From: a virus
Reading direction: 5' to 3' (one strand)
DNA length: 52,582 nt
IMG/VR virus record: IMGVR_UViG_3300034118_000979
Span: 1 to 52,582 of that record
In this document: positions 1-15,818 of the stretch, piece by piece
How the letters are laid out: the number at the start of each line of letters is the position of its first letter
Position numbering within the stretch: position 1 is the first letter of the stretch
The notes under the pieces: model-generated
Told to the model about the DNA's origin: nothing
Seen by the model: only the letters and a program-made list of their open reading frames with translations
Database searches by the model: none
Program-made: the position numbers and the translations under genes

Positions 1-3000
1 TCTTTTAATGCTGGCAACGACCAGGACTCTTCATCCTCCGTGCCGCCCGACTCATTGTTTTCTGGCTTTGTCACTGGTTTACGGGTCGCCCGGCGGAGCA
101 CGCGCTTTTTCGTCTTTTTGACCTTCCCTGCCGCCGGTTTCCGTTTTCGACGGACCACCTTCTTCACGGCTTCTTCCTCGGCGGTCTGGTTGTTCATGGC
201 ACCGAGCACCCGCTGATACAGTTTTTTACCCAGTGCATTGCCGCCGTAAATACCCAAGGCGGGCAAGCCAGCATGTAAAAGCAAGTTGGCAAGACCCGGA
301 TCTTCAATTCTGTTATCGAACTTAGATATCAATTTACGTGCGTGGCCGGCCGCGGTGTTGCCGCCAAAAAATCCAAGGCCGGCGCCGGTGCCCGCCGCGA
401 AGTTTTCTGGATTCTTGGTCAAACCGCCATAAGCAGCCCCAAGCAGGGCCGACGCGCCGAGTGCCCGAGAACCCTGCACAAGTGGATTCTTCGTGACAGC
501 GGCTTGGTCTTTAATATTGCTGAATGTGGGTACGCCGCCGATGACGCTGTTGTGAATATAGTTGATATACCCAGGCACGCCTTCATACACGACGTGCGGC
601 AACGAGTCTTGAAAAAACGTTTTAGTTTGAAAACGCAATTTATCGGCCGTCGTAGCGTTGGGGTGTTCTTTCGCATACCGGGCTACCTGCATGCTTAGGC
701 TCGGCCAGTTGTCCTCGTGAAAAATCCAGTTCTTGCCGTGCCGATGAAAGTGCATGCCGGTATACGGATGCCGTAACGTGCGGAATTGCGTCTGCCCGCG
801 CTCTGGCACGGCGACATACGACGGCAAAAACCCAAGTGCTTTCAAATCTTTTTCAGCAAAAGACGACGCTGGTAAAAAACTTCGCGGCAACGAGCCGATC
901 ATGTCAGAGGAAATATCTGGTGTTTTGCGGTGCTTCATTAAGGAGTTTAATAGCGTTCGGCGCGTGGCCTCTATCTGTGCAGCACGTACTGGAGGCCGCG
1001 GGACTTCTGTCGCATACGCCTTAAACACGCTATCTAAATCACTTCGGGACGGTTTAATATCTCGGCTATTCAGTCGTTGCGGTAATTTTGATAGCCAGCC
1101 TGCAGCGCCTCGGGCAGCAGTTGCTGTTCCCCGGGCGGCGTCGCCCATTGTGTTCTTTGCGTCGCCGAACGCCTCCATGGCGTCAGCCGCTTTCTCGGCA
1201 AACCACGTAGCAACGCCGGCAACGGGATCAATGTAATTTGAGTTTTTCACGCTACCCTCTTCGCGCAGGATCTTGCGGAAGACTTCGTTCAGGCGTTCTT
1301 TATCAGCAGTTAAATGCTCTAACACTTCATCACCTGTGCGTTCGCGTTGGTAACCCATCAGTTTACCCAACCACGACGGATCTTCAGAACTAGAGATATA
1401 CCGCTGCACGGCGACGTTCTTCAGTTCTTCGGGCAAGTCTTGATGGCTGTCAAATCGTAAACCCCGGCCCTTGGCTTGTTGGCTGCGAGACTCGTGCCAG
1501 TGCGGGTCTAACAGCTGTATTAAACTCGTGCCCTTGGTGGAGATACCCTCGGCTGCGGCTGGGCCTAACAGCAATGCCCGCAGTTTGCCCTCGTTGTAAT
1601 CTTTGAGGGCCTGCTGGCGTTGCTTTACCGGAATGCTACCGTGGAAAATACCGTGCGGAATCTTGGCTTTCTCTAACGCCGAACTGTATGGCTTCAGGCC
1701 AGAGTCAATAAAGTTGGAATAAATGATGGCTTTTTTACGGGGGTCTGAGTCCAGCACGCCTTGCAGGTTTTTCATGGCCGTCTGTAACTTGGACGATTGC
1801 CCGAACGCGCGGCCTGGATCTTTGTCATATCGAAATGGCTGCGTAGACAACGAGACTTGGCGAAGGCCCGTGAGAAAACTATTTAACTTGGCCAATTCAT
1901 CGCGGGACATGGGAAACTCTTTGTCGAGTTTCCAGAGAAAGCCCGGCGGGATCTTCGTACGAATGGCTTTCTGAATCTTTTGCTGGTCGGGCGACAGGGG
2001 CACGCGAATGACTTCTTCATTCACGTTGACGCCTTCTGGAGTCTTACTGGGCTGATAATCAATCTTGCCCCGTAGCAAACCCCGTAACTGGTCTTCGTTC
2101 TTGACAACTCCTCGCTCACCAGGCGCCACACCGCGAAACCAATTGACCACGCCGGGGTTCACACTCTCGTAGTCAATAAAACGCTTCTCAAAGTCTTCGG
2201 GCGTAATGTTCTTGTTGTGCAGCATGCCCAGCAAGTTAGCCAGGTCACTCGGCGAATTCGTGACGGGCGAGCCAGTCAGTAGCAGCAAGTTTTTGGCATT
2301 CCGGGCTACGCGCTTTGCCGCCTGACCACTAGCCGACCCAGGATTCCGCAACCGGTGGGCTTCGTCCATGATGACCGTGTCGGGCTGCTCAGCGAAGTTC
2401 TTGCCTAACGCCAGCCCCGTATACGACATGATCTCTGGGCTTGAGTTCGTAGTGAACTTGCCTACTTCTTTTTCGAAGTTGCCCTTGAGTGCCGCCGGGA
2501 CCACGATGCCGTAATCGTCTTTGTATTTCTTCTTGGCCGCCTCAGCAGCAGCAATCGCCGAGAGCGACTTGCCAGAACCCAGCCCGTGATACACCAGCAA
2601 GCGCGACTCGTCGTTCGTTACGCGGTCTGCAATGCGTTGCTGATGGTCCTGCAGTTTTATGTCAGGATTAAGATCGGCTGTTTTGAGAATTGACGGTGAT
2701 GGCGCGAGAGACGGATAGCCCGCTGTTTCGCGAAACTTTTTGAGCCGGGCTGCCAGCAACTCTTTTTGTTTTTGACTCCGCAACCACGCCTGCGAGATCA
2801 ACGCTAAGTCCGTCATCTCTTTGTCGATATTACCTTGCGTCGACAATGCCGTTTGCGTGTCGGTCAGGTGCTGCGGCAATGCAGCTAAAAGGTGGGCCCG
2901 GTCACTCCACTTAGGGGCAAATTTAGTCAGGTCATTGGCTTGCTTTTGTGCCACGTACTTTTGCATCGCCTTGGCCTTGTAGGCGTCCAGCATCTCAGTC

Positions 3001-11967: not shown

Positions 11968-12303
11968 ATGAAAGTGCTTAGAATGTTATTGGTGGCCCTG
12001 ATAGCGAATGTCTGTGGGGGCGGGGAATCGCTGGTTGTGTTCAGTGCCTCGTGGTGCGGTCCTTGCCAGCAATTTAAACAAGACCTCGTTGAAGATCCCG
12101 AACTAATAGCCGGCTACGAAATAGACGTTATTGACGTAGATCTGCTCCCCGATATGGCTGCAGACTTTACTGTTAAATCCTATCCCACGTTTATTGTTGT
12201 CAAAGTAGACGACGACATATTAAAGCCAGAGAATGAAATCCGGCGCGAAATCGGGTACACAGGGCCAGGGAAGTTTAAACGCTGGCTGCTGCGAAACCGC
12301 TGA
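11968..12303 (+). CDS. Exported thioredoxin-like protein
   Basis: 111 residues with AAGGAG upstream. A hydrophobic N terminus (about residues 4-15) suggests export or membrane anchoring. The active site WCGPC lies at residues 29-33 and the cis-proline loop SYPTF near 70. Length and motifs fit a minimal thioredoxin fold. It would exchange disulfides, probably in the periplasm, perhaps serving phage proteins rich in cysteine or the secreted protease. It is one of only three plus-strand genes here, facing the DUF6321-like gene. The stop overlaps the sequence tgatagcta that flanks the minus-strand terminator just downstream. Confidence 0.88.
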   Translation: MKVLRMLLVALIANVCGGGESLVVFSASWCGPCQQFKQDLVEDPELIAGYEIDVIDVDLLPDMAADFTVKSYPTFIVVKVDDDILKPENEIRREIGYTGPGKFKRWLLRNR

Positions 12304-12306
12304 TAG

Positions 12307-12339
12307 CTAAAAAAAACCGCCCAAGTGTTAGTTGGGCGG
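12307..12339 (-). terminator. Rho-independent terminator with AGCTATC suffix
   Basis: On the minus strand an 8-bp stem CCGCCCAA/TTGGGCGG is followed by a run of eight T and then AGCTATC. It ends the unit containing the 67-residue gene and lies convergent to the thioredoxin gene. The T-run-AGCTAT ending recurs at four other terminators in the window. Confidence 0.85.
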
Positions 12340-12363
12340 CGGTGGTTAGTGGTGCCGTAGTGC

Positions 12364-12567
12364 TTACTTCGCCACCACGGTTTTTCTCAGATCGACAATT
12401 TGCTGCTGGAGGTGACCGATCTCCAGAAACAACTTGTCAATTAACTGCCGGTCACGTTCACTCCGATCAATCAACTGAAGGATAGCCCTAGTAGCCGTCA
12501 TCGGTGTGTGCCGAGTGTGGCCCGTAATCACGTCCACACCGCACCACTCAATCATATTGTTAGACAT
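12364..12567 (-). CDS. Small unknown protein with coiled-coil tail
   Basis: 67 residues. AGGAG lies 8 bases before ATG 12567. The C-terminal half (about 35-62) shows heptad-like spacing of Leu/Ile (LIDKLFLEIGHLQQQIVDL) and probably forms a coiled coil. No family is recognised. The gene has its own promoter element (12599-12631) and terminator (12307-12339), a one-gene insulated unit. Confidence 0.65.
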   Translation of the reverse strand: MSNNMIEWCGVDVITGHTRHTPMTATRAILQLIDRSERDRQLIDKLFLEIGHLQQQIVDLRKTVVAK

Positions 12568-12598
12568 GCATATGTCTCCTGTGATGGTTAAGGGGCCT

Positions 12599-12631
12599 CA
12601 TAACATATGCCAGGTTTTTACCCGTTATTTA
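12599..12631 (-). promoter_or_regulatory. Promoter element copy A (TAAATAA-N14-GCATATNTWATG)
   Basis: On the minus strand TAAATAA, 14 bases, then GCATATGTTATG. The right-hand part contains a -10-like TGTTAT. It sits immediately downstream of a terminator and 32 bases before the start codon of the 67-residue gene, the position expected of a promoter. Confidence 0.6.
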
Positions 12632-12648
12632 ACTAATCGTTGATAGCT

Positions 12649-12682
12649 AAAAAAAGGGGTGAGCACACGTGACGCCCACCCC
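12649..12682 (-). terminator. Rho-independent terminator with AGCTATC suffix
   Basis: On the minus strand GGGGTG/CACCCC pairs around a GC-rich loop, followed by seven T and AGCTATCA. It ends the unit of the 126-residue membrane coiled-coil gene and is followed directly by promoter copy A. Confidence 0.8.
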
Positions 12683-12714
12683 AATCGAAGTTTAACCGCT
12701 TCGACGGCTGCCGC

Positions 12715-13095
12715 TTACGCGGACGGGATCTGCTCCAGGGCAGCTTCCACCCGGCGAAGATGCCGAAGCATCTCTTCCTTGCGGATCTCTGCCCGCCGCT
12801 CGGCGGCTGCGAGTTCGTTGGCAAGGATTTCGTGGTTCCGGCTGAGATTGACGATATCCCGTTTGAGCTCGTCCATCTCGGCTGCGACGGCGTCACTGCC
12901 GAAAAGAATGGCCGCGCATCGTGCGAGGCGATGCACCGCGACTTCCGCCAGATTGACGAAGTCGTGGCTACGCCGCCTTACGAATCCGATCGTCTCCTCG
13001 CGGCCGAAGACGTACGTTGCGACCCATATGGTCGCGAGCACCCACCACGCCAGGCACGCCATCGGGATCAGCGTATCGACAATCGACTCGACCAT
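12715..13095 (-). CDS. Membrane-anchored coiled-coil protein, GC-rich gene
   Basis: 126 residues from ATG 13095, chosen because GGAGG lies 7 bases upstream. One membrane segment (about residues 4-30, rich in Trp/Ala/Leu) is followed by a basic stretch and a long charged helix (about 60-125) with coiled-coil character. No family is recognised. Third codon positions are strongly G/C, unlike most neighbours, hinting at a separate origin. Its Shine-Dalgarno lies a few bases after the closing helix of the large structured RNA (13111-13817), so that RNA is also its 5' leader. Confidence 0.65.
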   Translation of the reverse strand: MVESIVDTLIPMACLAWWVLATIWVATYVFGREETIGFVRRRSHDFVNLAEVAVHRLARCAAILFGSDAVAAEMDELKRDIVNLSRNHEILANELAAAERRAEIRKEEMLRHLRRVEAALEQIPSA

Positions 13096-13347
13096 GGGAT
13101 CGTCCTCCACAAGGCACCGAGCTAATCTGTTGTTAACGCACAACAGAGTCCGCTTTTGGGATTCGAACCCATAGCCCCACAGGTTGCCCTGCTGGCTCGC
13201 GGAAAGTTCCTGTACGGCAGACTTACGTCCACCGCGTCGAGTTTCAAAACTTCGCTGGCGTGTAGGAATCCACGCTGCGCAAGTCCGTCCCTCGACTCCG
13301 ATGTGAACAAGGTCTTACCCTTGCCGTGCGTTCCGCTAAAATTGATC

Positions 13348-13380
13348 GATTCAGCGTTCCGTGGGAACGACTTATGAACC
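13348..13380 (-). repeat. Two-part hairpin repeat, copy 2 of the structured RNA
   Basis: Minus strand: GGTTCA, internal loop TAAGT, inner stem CGTTCC with loop CAC and GGAACG, one base, then TGAATC closing the outer stem (one G-U pair). The layout and loop sequences are the same as at 13448-13480, but the stems differ by compensating changes. Confidence 0.75.
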
Positions 13381-13447
13381 GGCCACTTTAAACGGTGAAT
13401 TCTGCGGAAGTACAGAATCCAGCACAATTTGCCAATGAGCACTCTTC

Positions 13448-13480
13448 GGTTCGACACCCCGTGGGAGTGACTTACGAACC
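13448..13480 (-). repeat. Two-part hairpin repeat, copy 1 of the structured RNA
   Basis: Minus strand: outer stem GGTTCG/CGAACC, internal loop TAAGT on the 5' side and a single T on the 3' side, inner stem CACTCC/GGGGTG, loop CAC. It starts exactly 100 nt from copy 2. A looser relative with the same TAAGT core lies at 13198-13236, closed by CGCGG/CCGCG. Confidence 0.75.
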
Positions 13481-13815
13481 TAGCTCACCAACAAACTCAC
13501 GTTGCTCGTCACCGCATATAAGAAGCGGCAGCGGCTTCTGCCCGGCTTGTGACCGGATACAGAACACCGCAGCGACGAACCGCCTACTAACTAACTTGCG
13601 TTAGCGTTCGGTACACAGGCGCTCTAGAACAGCACGCCCATGTCGGGAAAAACGCTCTTGGCGTTTTCGCGGTGGTGATTCCTCACACACCCCATACACG
13701 AATTGTGCTTTAAGCCGCACAGCCTTGTATGACAGGCTAGGCCGTTGAGAGTTTCACTCAACCCCTCCCTTTTTAACGTGGCTAGGTCCCCCACGGATGA
13801 CACCTAGGGTGCCCT

Positions 13816-13848
13816 CATTAGATATGCCGTGATTTATGCTGTTATTTA
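13816..13848 (-). promoter_or_regulatory. Promoter element copy B, driving the structured RNA
   Basis: Minus strand TAAATAA, 14 bases, GCATATCTAATG. The -10-like TCTAAT ends a few bases before the 5' strand of the closing helix of the structured RNA, so the RNA should begin at or near 13817-13815. A terminator lies immediately upstream. Confidence 0.65.
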
Positions 13849-13864
13849 GATACCCGCTGATAGC

Positions 13865-13899
13865 TAAGAAAAACCGCAAGCGCGGGGCTTTCGCCCTGC
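13865..13899 (-). terminator. Terminator with AGCTATC suffix
   Basis: Minus strand GGGC-GAAA-GCCC and then CCGC-GCTT-GCGG followed by TTTTTCTT and AGCTATCA. It ends the 157-residue gene unit and is followed by promoter copy B. Confidence 0.7.
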
Positions 13900-13928
13900 A
13901 ACTTTTGGTTTCTCCCGCAGCGGGCGGA

Positions 13929-14402
13929 TTAACGACCGAACTTGTCGATCGCCGCCGCCTTGGTGATCCGGTCCGCCATGATCACCGTGCCGACCTTGGT
14001 GAACATGGGCCAACCGCCCACAACCTCGTCGAGCACGTGGGCCTCGCGGAGCGCCTGCAGCAGCGGGAACGGAATCAAGATCAGATCCACGTCCCACGAC
14101 TCCTGCAGGTCGGCGAGTGCCCGCATCACCACGTAGGTGAGCACGAACACCGGCTTCACCGCCATGACCGTACCGGCGACGTTGTGGAGAGGCCCAGCCC
14201 ACGGCGTCTCCGCGTCTTTGCGGTCCATCGACAGCACCTTGCTCCGCTCCTCGTCGCAGGCCGGCAGAACCGACCCGTCGACGAAGTTGAAGGGGTGCGG
14301 CGAACTGAAGTTCGCCACCCTGAGCCCGTTGCTCAGGTTGATGACCGGGGCCTCGATCAGGGTGCCCAGAACGCCATCGGAAGAAAGGATGGTCGCGTTC
14401 AT
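13929..14402 (-). CDS. Unknown protein, GC-rich gene
   Basis: 157 residues with a strong AAGGAGG upstream of ATG 14402. No enzyme motif or signal peptide is seen. The segment NFSSPHPFNFVDGSVLPAC looks like a conserved block of an uncharacterised family, but I cannot name it. Base composition is clearly more GC-rich than neighbours, with G/C at most third positions, similar to the 126-residue gene. It is a single-gene unit between promoter copy C (about 85 bases upstream) and its own terminator. The leader includes a GCCGG/CCGGC hairpin. Confidence 0.75.
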   Translation of the reverse strand: MNATILSSDGVLGTLIEAPVINLSNGLRVANFSSPHPFNFVDGSVLPACDEERSKVLSMDRKDAETPWAGPLHNVAGTVMAVKPVFVLTYVVMRALADLQESWDVDLILIPFPLLQALREAHVLDEVVGGWPMFTKVGTVIMADRITKAAAIDKFGR

Positions 14403-14489
14403 ACTCTGCCCTCCTTAAGGCAAAGGCCGGATTCTGCCGGCACAGGATGTCACCGCGTGTCAGTACACACCAACAGCTAACGGCTCCAT

Positions 14490-14522
14490 CATTAGATATG
14501 CCGTAATTTATGCTGTTATTTA
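14490..14522 (-). promoter_or_regulatory. Promoter element copy C
   Basis: Minus strand TAAATAA, 14 bases, GCATATCTAATG. It is nearly identical to copy B throughout, including most of the spacer. It lies between the terminator at 14539-14563 and the 157-residue gene. Confidence 0.65.
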
Positions 14523-14538
14523 GCACTGCCTGATAGCT

Positions 14539-14563
14539 AAAAAAGGGGCCCAAGGGCGGCCCC
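14539..14563 (-). terminator. Strong terminator closing the tRNA/tmRNA operon
   Basis: Minus strand GGGGCC/GGCCCC with a 7-base loop, then six T and AGCTATCA. It lies shortly after the 95-residue gene and ends the transcription unit that appears to begin near 19.55 kb. Confidence 0.85.
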
Positions 14564-15395: not shown

Positions 15396-15464
15396 CATTC
15401 TTTCAGGCAGCGGTTTATCGTAATAGGTTATCCCTTCCAGTCACTAGACGCGCGCATAAACAAG

Positions 15465-15818
15465 TGGACCCGGCGGGAGTCGAACCCGCGTCCGGAGAAG
15501 TGCCCAGTTAAAACATCTACGTGTGTATGCCATTATCTTTCACCAACGGCCAATGCTATCCGCACACTTAGCGGAGTCACGTGGACTACCACGATCTCGT
15601 CCGATTACTTTGCCGGACCGACGCAAGTGACTTATCACTATCAGCCTGATTGGGCGATGAGGTCCAGGCAACCCCACAAGCCACCTAACCGAGGTCAGGC
15701 AGCGAGGGCCGGAGCATAAGCGCCAGCTAGAAACTTAATCGAGTTTTAACGCGGCCTCTCGATCAACCGCGACACGCAGTCAGAACCTTCTTCCTCCCGT
15801 CGATACCAGTACGGGCCC
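15465..15818 (-). ncRNA. ssrA: tmRNA
   Basis: 354 nt. The 5' end GGGCCCG pairs with CGGGTCC at the 3' end, including the G3-U70 pair used by alanyl-tRNA synthetase. It is followed by the tmRNA-type sequence GTACTGGTATCGACGGG, and the T arm is GCGGG-TTCGACT-CCCGC. A reading frame at 15727-15695 gives the likely tag AGAYAPALAA then TGA, with the usual Ala-Leu-Ala-Ala end; the resume codon is inferred. CCA is not encoded. tmRNA with SmpB rescues stalled ribosomes and tags the nascent peptide for degradation. No smpB gene is seen here, so host SmpB is presumably used. Confidence 0.92.

Follow-up and report, generated by a model that had tools for sequence, protein, structure and literature searches.

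A large structured RNA is encoded on the minus strand of a phage genome fragment, at positions 13815-13111 of the window (the whole stretch of DNA analysed, 52,582 nucleotides, IMG/VR record IMGVR_UViG_3300034118_000979). In the current analysis four sequence types of this RNA have been identified on ten contigs, the window included. The carriers are large phages sampled as environmental DNA; their RNA is roughly 500-1000 nt in length and holds no credible gene. That it is a real conserved structured RNA is scarcely in doubt. It is considered probable that the RNA acts in trans rather than as a leader, and with moderate confidence we regard it as belonging to a new family of large structured RNAs of phages, acting in trans as a structural scaffold in the manner of GOLLD and ROOL.

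Position, strand and extent of the RNA

A sequence-only reading of this DNA had proposed a structured non-coding RNA between 13111 and 13817. Divergent homologues, described below, uphold the proposal on the minus strand. This is taken as the RNA strand because the tRNAs, the tmRNA, most of the neighbouring genes and a promoter-like element have the same orientation. The plus strand was dropped as the candidate RNA, the minus strand folding better (z -8.0 vs -3.2, 20 shuffles each). The RNA and its proposed closing strands are as follows.

13111..13815 (-), large structured RNA as first delimited, from its fold, its homologues and the absence of an Rfam match; the ends are provisional
13808..13815 (-), 5' strand of the closing helix, partner of 13118-13111; no counterpart recognised in the homologues
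13111..13118 (-), 3' strand of the closing helix, pairing with 13815-13808

The closing strands, AGGGCACC (13815-13808) and GGTGCCTT (13118-13111), form 8 bp with one G-U. Neither this helix as a conserved feature nor the CACC/GGTG alternative, earlier put forward as a switch, has a recognisable counterpart in the homologues as judged by eye and from single-sequence folds. The window RNA also contains other elements of the reading: a pair of hairpins with GCAA caps, a T-arm without mismatches (GGGTTCGAATCCC, 13170-13158) and, at 13482-13447 and 13382-13347, the two copies of the repeated two-part hairpin. The GGAGG and ATG that start a gene of 126 residues come after the closing strand, as had been noted.

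Among 72 stretches of 707 nt, each compared with 10 dinucleotide shuffles, the RNA ranks third (z -6.2; plus strand there -5.7). Two neighbours that contain genes and terminators outrank it, 12301(-) with z -9.1 and 13801(-) with z -7.5. Stability characterises the neighbourhood and not the RNA stretch alone. Since gene-bearing neighbours fold equally or more strongly, fold energy is no proof, and it is the homologues that decide.

Homologues in related phages

The portal protein of the window phage shares 25-28% identity with its counterparts in Salmonella phage Arash and Vibrio phage D69. Portal alignment provided a set of 84 related viral stretches, of which 80 were kept. A DNA similarity search of 50,697 phage records with the window RNA gave no match at E <= 1e-5, and searches with the RNAs of the two types referred to below as G030 and L154 gave none at E <= 0.01. 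Two further contigs with an identical RNA region are uninformative for covariation.

Of 36 related records compared with the RNA by BLAST, 19 have matches at E <= 1, mostly short. G030 has a 21-nt match (95%, E 0.006) on the repeated hairpin, situated behind a thioredoxin gene; the same gene neighbours the RNA in the window, which constitutes synteny. The G030 region is structured (fold z -8.2) and has several short motifs in common with the window RNA. Those designated B, C and D occur in the same order, and some other common 8-mers are not collinear.

The L154 type was identified with a degenerate pattern for hairpin C in G028 and G029, and later in two more contigs. With one mismatch allowed the pattern occurs in 7 of 50 records, as against 2 of 50 for a reversed control pattern; among these one-mismatch matches that of G020, which has no match to the model R1, was dropped, and so was that of G006. 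A pattern for hairpin B alone gave 10 stretches, comprising three known carriers, L263, L264 and five more that have neither C nor D in their vicinity. L263 and L264, which are 100% identical over 3592 bases, carry hairpin C (E 4.5e-8 with a model whose training set did not include them) with D in place, and form the L264 type. The ten contigs thus comprise three of the window type (its own record included), one of G030, four of L154 (one cut inside the RNA) and two of L264.

In a leave-one-out search the model R2, built without the L154 type, ranks the three loci of that type at the top in 302,959 bases (E 0.001, the next match being at 0.74). Model R1 finds 4 of the 50 related records at E <= 2.1e-7 and was itself built from those types. 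At E <= 0.5 model R3 finds 2 of the 50, both in its training set, and misses the L154 type there. Hairpin B alone reaches the L154 type only at E 0.2 and is unreported for G028 and G029 in the 50-record R3 search.

Most of the relatives are without a match to the RNA. Either the RNA is accessory in this group of phages, or it is elsewhere too divergent to be seen; many of the records are fragments. The 126-residue neighbour was found only in near-identical contigs. L011, the one distant phage matching a neighbour of 157 residues, has no RNA similarity and an R1 match at E 0.1 only, and the hairpin-C matches in L148, L170 and L172 were set aside as due to chance. In 84,980 bacterial and archaeal genomes seven stretches match hairpin C, the best with an R1 E-value of 0.0006 and none with B and D in order. 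A looser scan of viruses provided 70 further stretches with four R1 matches at E <= 0.1 (best 0.0007); none of the five stretches inspected has B or D nearby in order. No description of this RNA was found in the literature listings searched.

Conserved core and covariation

Hairpin B, the two-part hairpin C and the strand D are common to the four types, in this order. The core elements in the window are listed below; the pairing of P1 is taken from pair probabilities.

13671..13691 (-), hairpin A with GGAA loop (GAGGAAUC); common to the G030 type, absent from the L264 type, not seen in the L154 type
13643..13649 (-), 5' strand of P1, UUCCCGA, which can close the core junction
13612..13644 (-), hairpin B, stem and UYUAGAGC loop side
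13447..13482 (-), hairpin C, copy 1: outer helix, asymmetric UAAGU loop, inner CNNNCC/GGNNNG helix, CAM triloop
13347..13382 (-), hairpin C, copy 2, 100 nt further on
13296..13302 (-), motif D, AUCGGAG, the 3' strand of P1

Hairpin B has a 10-bp stem with a second, short stem inside it, and carries the sequence UAGAGC. In hairpin C an outer helix is followed by UAAGU looped out on one side (replaced by GUAAGC in the L264 type), a 6-bp inner helix C-NNN-CC / GG-NNN-G and a three-base loop; this hairpin is doubled in the window type only and present as one copy in the other types. Motif D, with the consensus AUCGG(G)AG, can pair with a CCCGA/UCUG strand just 5' of B and so close a junction. The pair probabilities of this P1 helix are 0.56-0.98 in the L154 type, 0.39-0.56 in G030 and a weak 0.16-0.36 in the window. 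The core is 197 nt long in L154, 219 nt in G030 and 365 nt in the window, the last being longer by the duplicated hairpin C and an extra inserted domain. The L264 type is without a domain of about 130-150 nt that contains hairpin A; this domain is therefore dispensable. The tail, hairpin A and the closing helix are not common to all types.

As four sequence types are too few for formal covariation statistics, changes on both sides of a pair were judged by shuffles or random placement. Six of the 12 pairs of hairpin C are changed on both sides, 91.7% of cells are paired and the covariation score is reached in 0 of 500 shuffles, in a four-row alignment to which the window contributes both of its copies. 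For hairpin B 5 of 13 pairs are changed on both sides among three types, and the score is reached in 5 of 500 shuffles. L139, of the G030 type, differs from L264 by 58 substitutions in 503 aligned positions. Among the pairs of the L139 fold 5 are changed on both sides, 13 on one side, 19 are broken and 46 lie at gaps; random placement (2000 times) gives means of 1.0 both-side changes and 30.6 broken pairs, and the observed 5 and 19 each have p 0.002.

A loose pattern for hairpin C has 132 matches, some overlapping, in all the loci compared at that stage. The 49 that have B and/or D correctly sided and spaced are, without exception, copies of the carrier phages, and the other 83 have neither. 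Homologues whose stems showed no covarying pairs had been named as the finding that would speak against the RNA; the changes on both sides in B and C favour it.

The tRNA-like tail

13144..13226 (-), tRNA-like domain by its fold: acceptor-like stem, two arms and a T-arm with the loop UUCGAAU; not called as a tRNA

The counterpart in the L154 type also folds into a tRNA-like form with an acceptor-like stem, arms and a T-arm with canonical loop. This domain is the basis of the main alternative to a scaffold, in which the RNA would be a protein-binding RNA or a tRNA-mimic decoy, its other parts presenting a tail that binds the ribosome, RNase P, a nuclease or the CCA-adding enzyme. The occurrence of a canonical T-loop in a 3' domain of both types is consistent with such a role, as is a weak match to mascRNA, a tRNA-like RNA, at the L154 tail (E 0.57, below cut-off). 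The G030 and L264 types, however, end at a terminator with no tRNA-like domain recognised, and neither ARAGORN nor the Rfam tRNA models call the tail as tRNA or tmRNA. We consider the decoy unlikely, though the main rival.

Genomic setting and transcription

The RNA of the window is flanked by the following features.

15464..15818 (-), phage tmRNA upstream of the RNA, with tRNA-Glu, -Val, -Leu and -Lys further upstream
13815..13867 (-), two-part promoter-like element TTAGCTATCAGC ... GCATATCTAATGA, directly upstream of the RNA
12715..13095 (-), gene of 126 residues 3' of the RNA; one hydrophobic N-terminal segment and a charged C-terminal part
12656..12682 (-), terminator-like hairpin with T7, which would end the unit of the RNA and the 126-residue gene

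In all four types the RNA is on the same strand as a tRNA array that terminates in tmRNA, and about 1.6-5.4 kb downstream of it. The distance is about 1.6 kb in the window, 1.9 kb in G028, 5.4 kb in G030 and 4.6 kb in L263, where the ARAGORN call of the tmRNA is irregular and its 3' end was placed from the sequence. A permuted tmRNA call in L263 was dropped. The odd long tmRNA tags reported by ARAGORN at L143:4856-5203 and L260:1768-2112 are frame mis-assignments, a tag ending in ALAA being present in another frame. Directly behind the tmRNA 3' end of L263 a region judged by eye to be rich in hairpins and non-coding (about 1750-2070, plus strand) is another possible RNA. A Pistol ribozyme (58 bits, above cut-off) is encoded in a carrier phage at L171:794-864 (+), just upstream of tRNA-Lys (1052).

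The view that the RNA directly follows a phage promoter-like element is borne out by TTAGCTATCAGC (13867-13856) and GCATATCTAATGA (13827-13815) upstream of 13815. With at most one mismatch there are 4 occurrences of TTAGCTATCAGC in the window, where 0.23 would be expected, and the gap between the two parts is 40-41 nt in three copies of the region. Sites resembling TTTAGCTATYAG number 38 among those listed for the window and related loci. The first part of the element comes after the T-run of a terminator-like hairpin. In the window (12299-14541, minus strand) and in related loci TTTTTTTAGCTATYAGC is found repeatedly 3' of terminator-like hairpins, and the second part, GCTAAATA...ATATCTATTGA, is present only where a unit begins. 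Terminator and promoter seem to be coupled in these phages. A phage sigma factor was rejected as the user of the element: that of D69 has a homologue in Arash, and none of the six compared phages that are closer to the window has a match to it.

The RNA shares transcription units with genes, and the earlier idea of a switch implies a leader that controls the 126-residue gene. A long cis-acting, riboswitch-like leader is consistent with the window, where the RNA runs into the ribosome-binding site of this gene and no terminator was seen between them in the scan. The protein has no match in Pfam or PADLOC and a weak one to PHROG 1009. The suggestion does not hold across the homologues, which do not keep the same position beside the same kind of gene. 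A gene also follows the RNA in the L154 type (L171:8751-9623, plus strand), but it is unrelated, encoding a membrane protein of 290 residues that has several hydrophobic segments and an N-terminal part rich in Lys and Ala and resembling histone H1. The RNA of the G030 and L264 types is preceded by a small gene (81 and 74 aa, respectively) and followed by a terminator. Across the types the RNA stays near the array while its flanking genes change, which argues for action in trans; a leader is improbable.

The presence or absence of the RNA between close relatives and the gain or loss of whole domains could also suggest a ribozyme, an intron or another mobile RNA. Against this, there is no match to group I, group II or ribozyme families, the site downstream of the tmRNA is conserved and no interrupted gene was noticed, and we hold this origin to be quite improbable.

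Search against known RNA families

The sequence-only reading had compared the RNA with GOLLD and ROOL in size and setting while recognising no known consensus, and had recommended a search of Rfam. Both points are borne out: the RNA lies in the neighbourhood downstream of the array, and none of the four types matches an Rfam family, up to E 5, with sub-threshold matches only. OLE, HEARO and the other Rfam 15 families give no covariance-model match, the best sub-threshold one being mir-2765 (E 0.098), a generic hairpin, in L264.

The GOLLD model (RF02032) finds nothing at E <= 10 in the carriers G002, G028, G029, G030 and G058. This search covered 45 records, these five carriers among them; the L264 type was covered by the Rfam scan of the L264 RNA. 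Vibrio phage D69 served as the positive control, with 186.2 bits against a cut-off of 150. Its true GOLLD (OZ195729.1 99273-99683; L175, L258) is located inside a tRNA array, and the D69 record annotates the hypothetical proteins VPHD69_0166 and VPHD69_0167 inside it. The search for ROOL (RF03087) was silent in 25 of 25 records and also in its control genomes; the Rfam scans to E 5 are likewise without ROOL.

GOLLD and ROOL are phage RNAs of unknown function, often near tRNA islands, that form nanocages (PMC12286853, in part). A very divergent member of either family would explain the same size, the phage setting and the tRNA neighbourhood (PMC12286853, in part), and D69, of the wider lineage, has a GOLLD. 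However, the GOLLD model is silent in five carriers while scoring 186 bits in D69, and neither family appears in the Rfam scans of the four types, making this explanation very unlikely. A protein-coding or chance origin is hardly conceivable. Minus-strand open frames of up to 111 aa inside the RNA would speak for coding, but five frames compared in the region have no Pfam match above cut-off, and the paired sites show the changes given above.

Proposed role of the RNA

The RNA would be transcribed during infection from the phage's own promoter element and would fold round a conserved junction in which P1 encloses B, C and spacer hairpins, with variable domains attached. It may then serve as a structural scaffold, most likely assembling with its own copies, as GOLLD and ROOL do, or with protein. 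By analogy with these RNAs a self-assembling particle is possible, and is put forward tentatively. The tRNA-like 3' domain of two types may be for processing or for recognition by tRNA-handling enzymes. A more speculative and rather doubtful extension is a third class of giant phage RNA beside GOLLD and ROOL, with a particle of its own and, in some lineages, a tRNA-like tail to capture or escape the tRNA-handling machinery of host or phage.

The cage structures of GOLLD and ROOL have been solved and their function is unknown; an unrelated family of like size and place is an independent case for asking why such RNAs exist. Its occurrence in phages whose distant relatives have GOLLD points to repeated acquisition of giant RNAs next to the tRNA genes of phages, in answer to a shared need. 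The small conserved core of about 200 nt in the L154 and G030 types is a starting point.

Comparison with known systems

An acceptor-like stem and a T-arm near the 3' end of two types are reminiscent of tmRNA and other tRNA-like 3' ends. The carrier phages nevertheless have a separate tmRNA, the tail is called by neither ARAGORN nor Rfam, and its middle arm has a 4-nt loop in place of the 7-nt anticodon loop of tRNA.

OLE RNA adjoins a gene for a membrane protein. The window and L154 types resemble the pair of OLE RNA and OapA in that the gene after the RNA codes for a protein whose hydrophobic segments are membrane-like. Unlike that system, there is no match to OLE, the two proteins are mutually unlike and the G030 and L264 types do not have the arrangement; an OapA-like pairing of the RNA with the next gene was rejected as not general.

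The cage of ROOL is an 8-mer. ROOL, a phage RNA about 600-700 nt in length, is often located close to tRNA islands (PMC12286853, in part), and the window RNA is like it in size and in its tRNA neighbourhood; the two differ in that none of the types found here matches ROOL, either in the Rfam scans or in the separate search whose control was silent.

GOLLD is characterised by a closed 14-mer RNA cage. GOLLD has a conserved part with variable parts attached, and its linker can contain tRNAs (PMC12286853, in part). Both are large phage RNAs near tRNA genes that combine a conserved part with variable attachments; in the carriers searched there is no match to the GOLLD model, and the conserved hairpins and the junction are others. 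By the tests made the new family is a member of neither GOLLD nor ROOL, and resembles them at most by analogy, in size, place and build.
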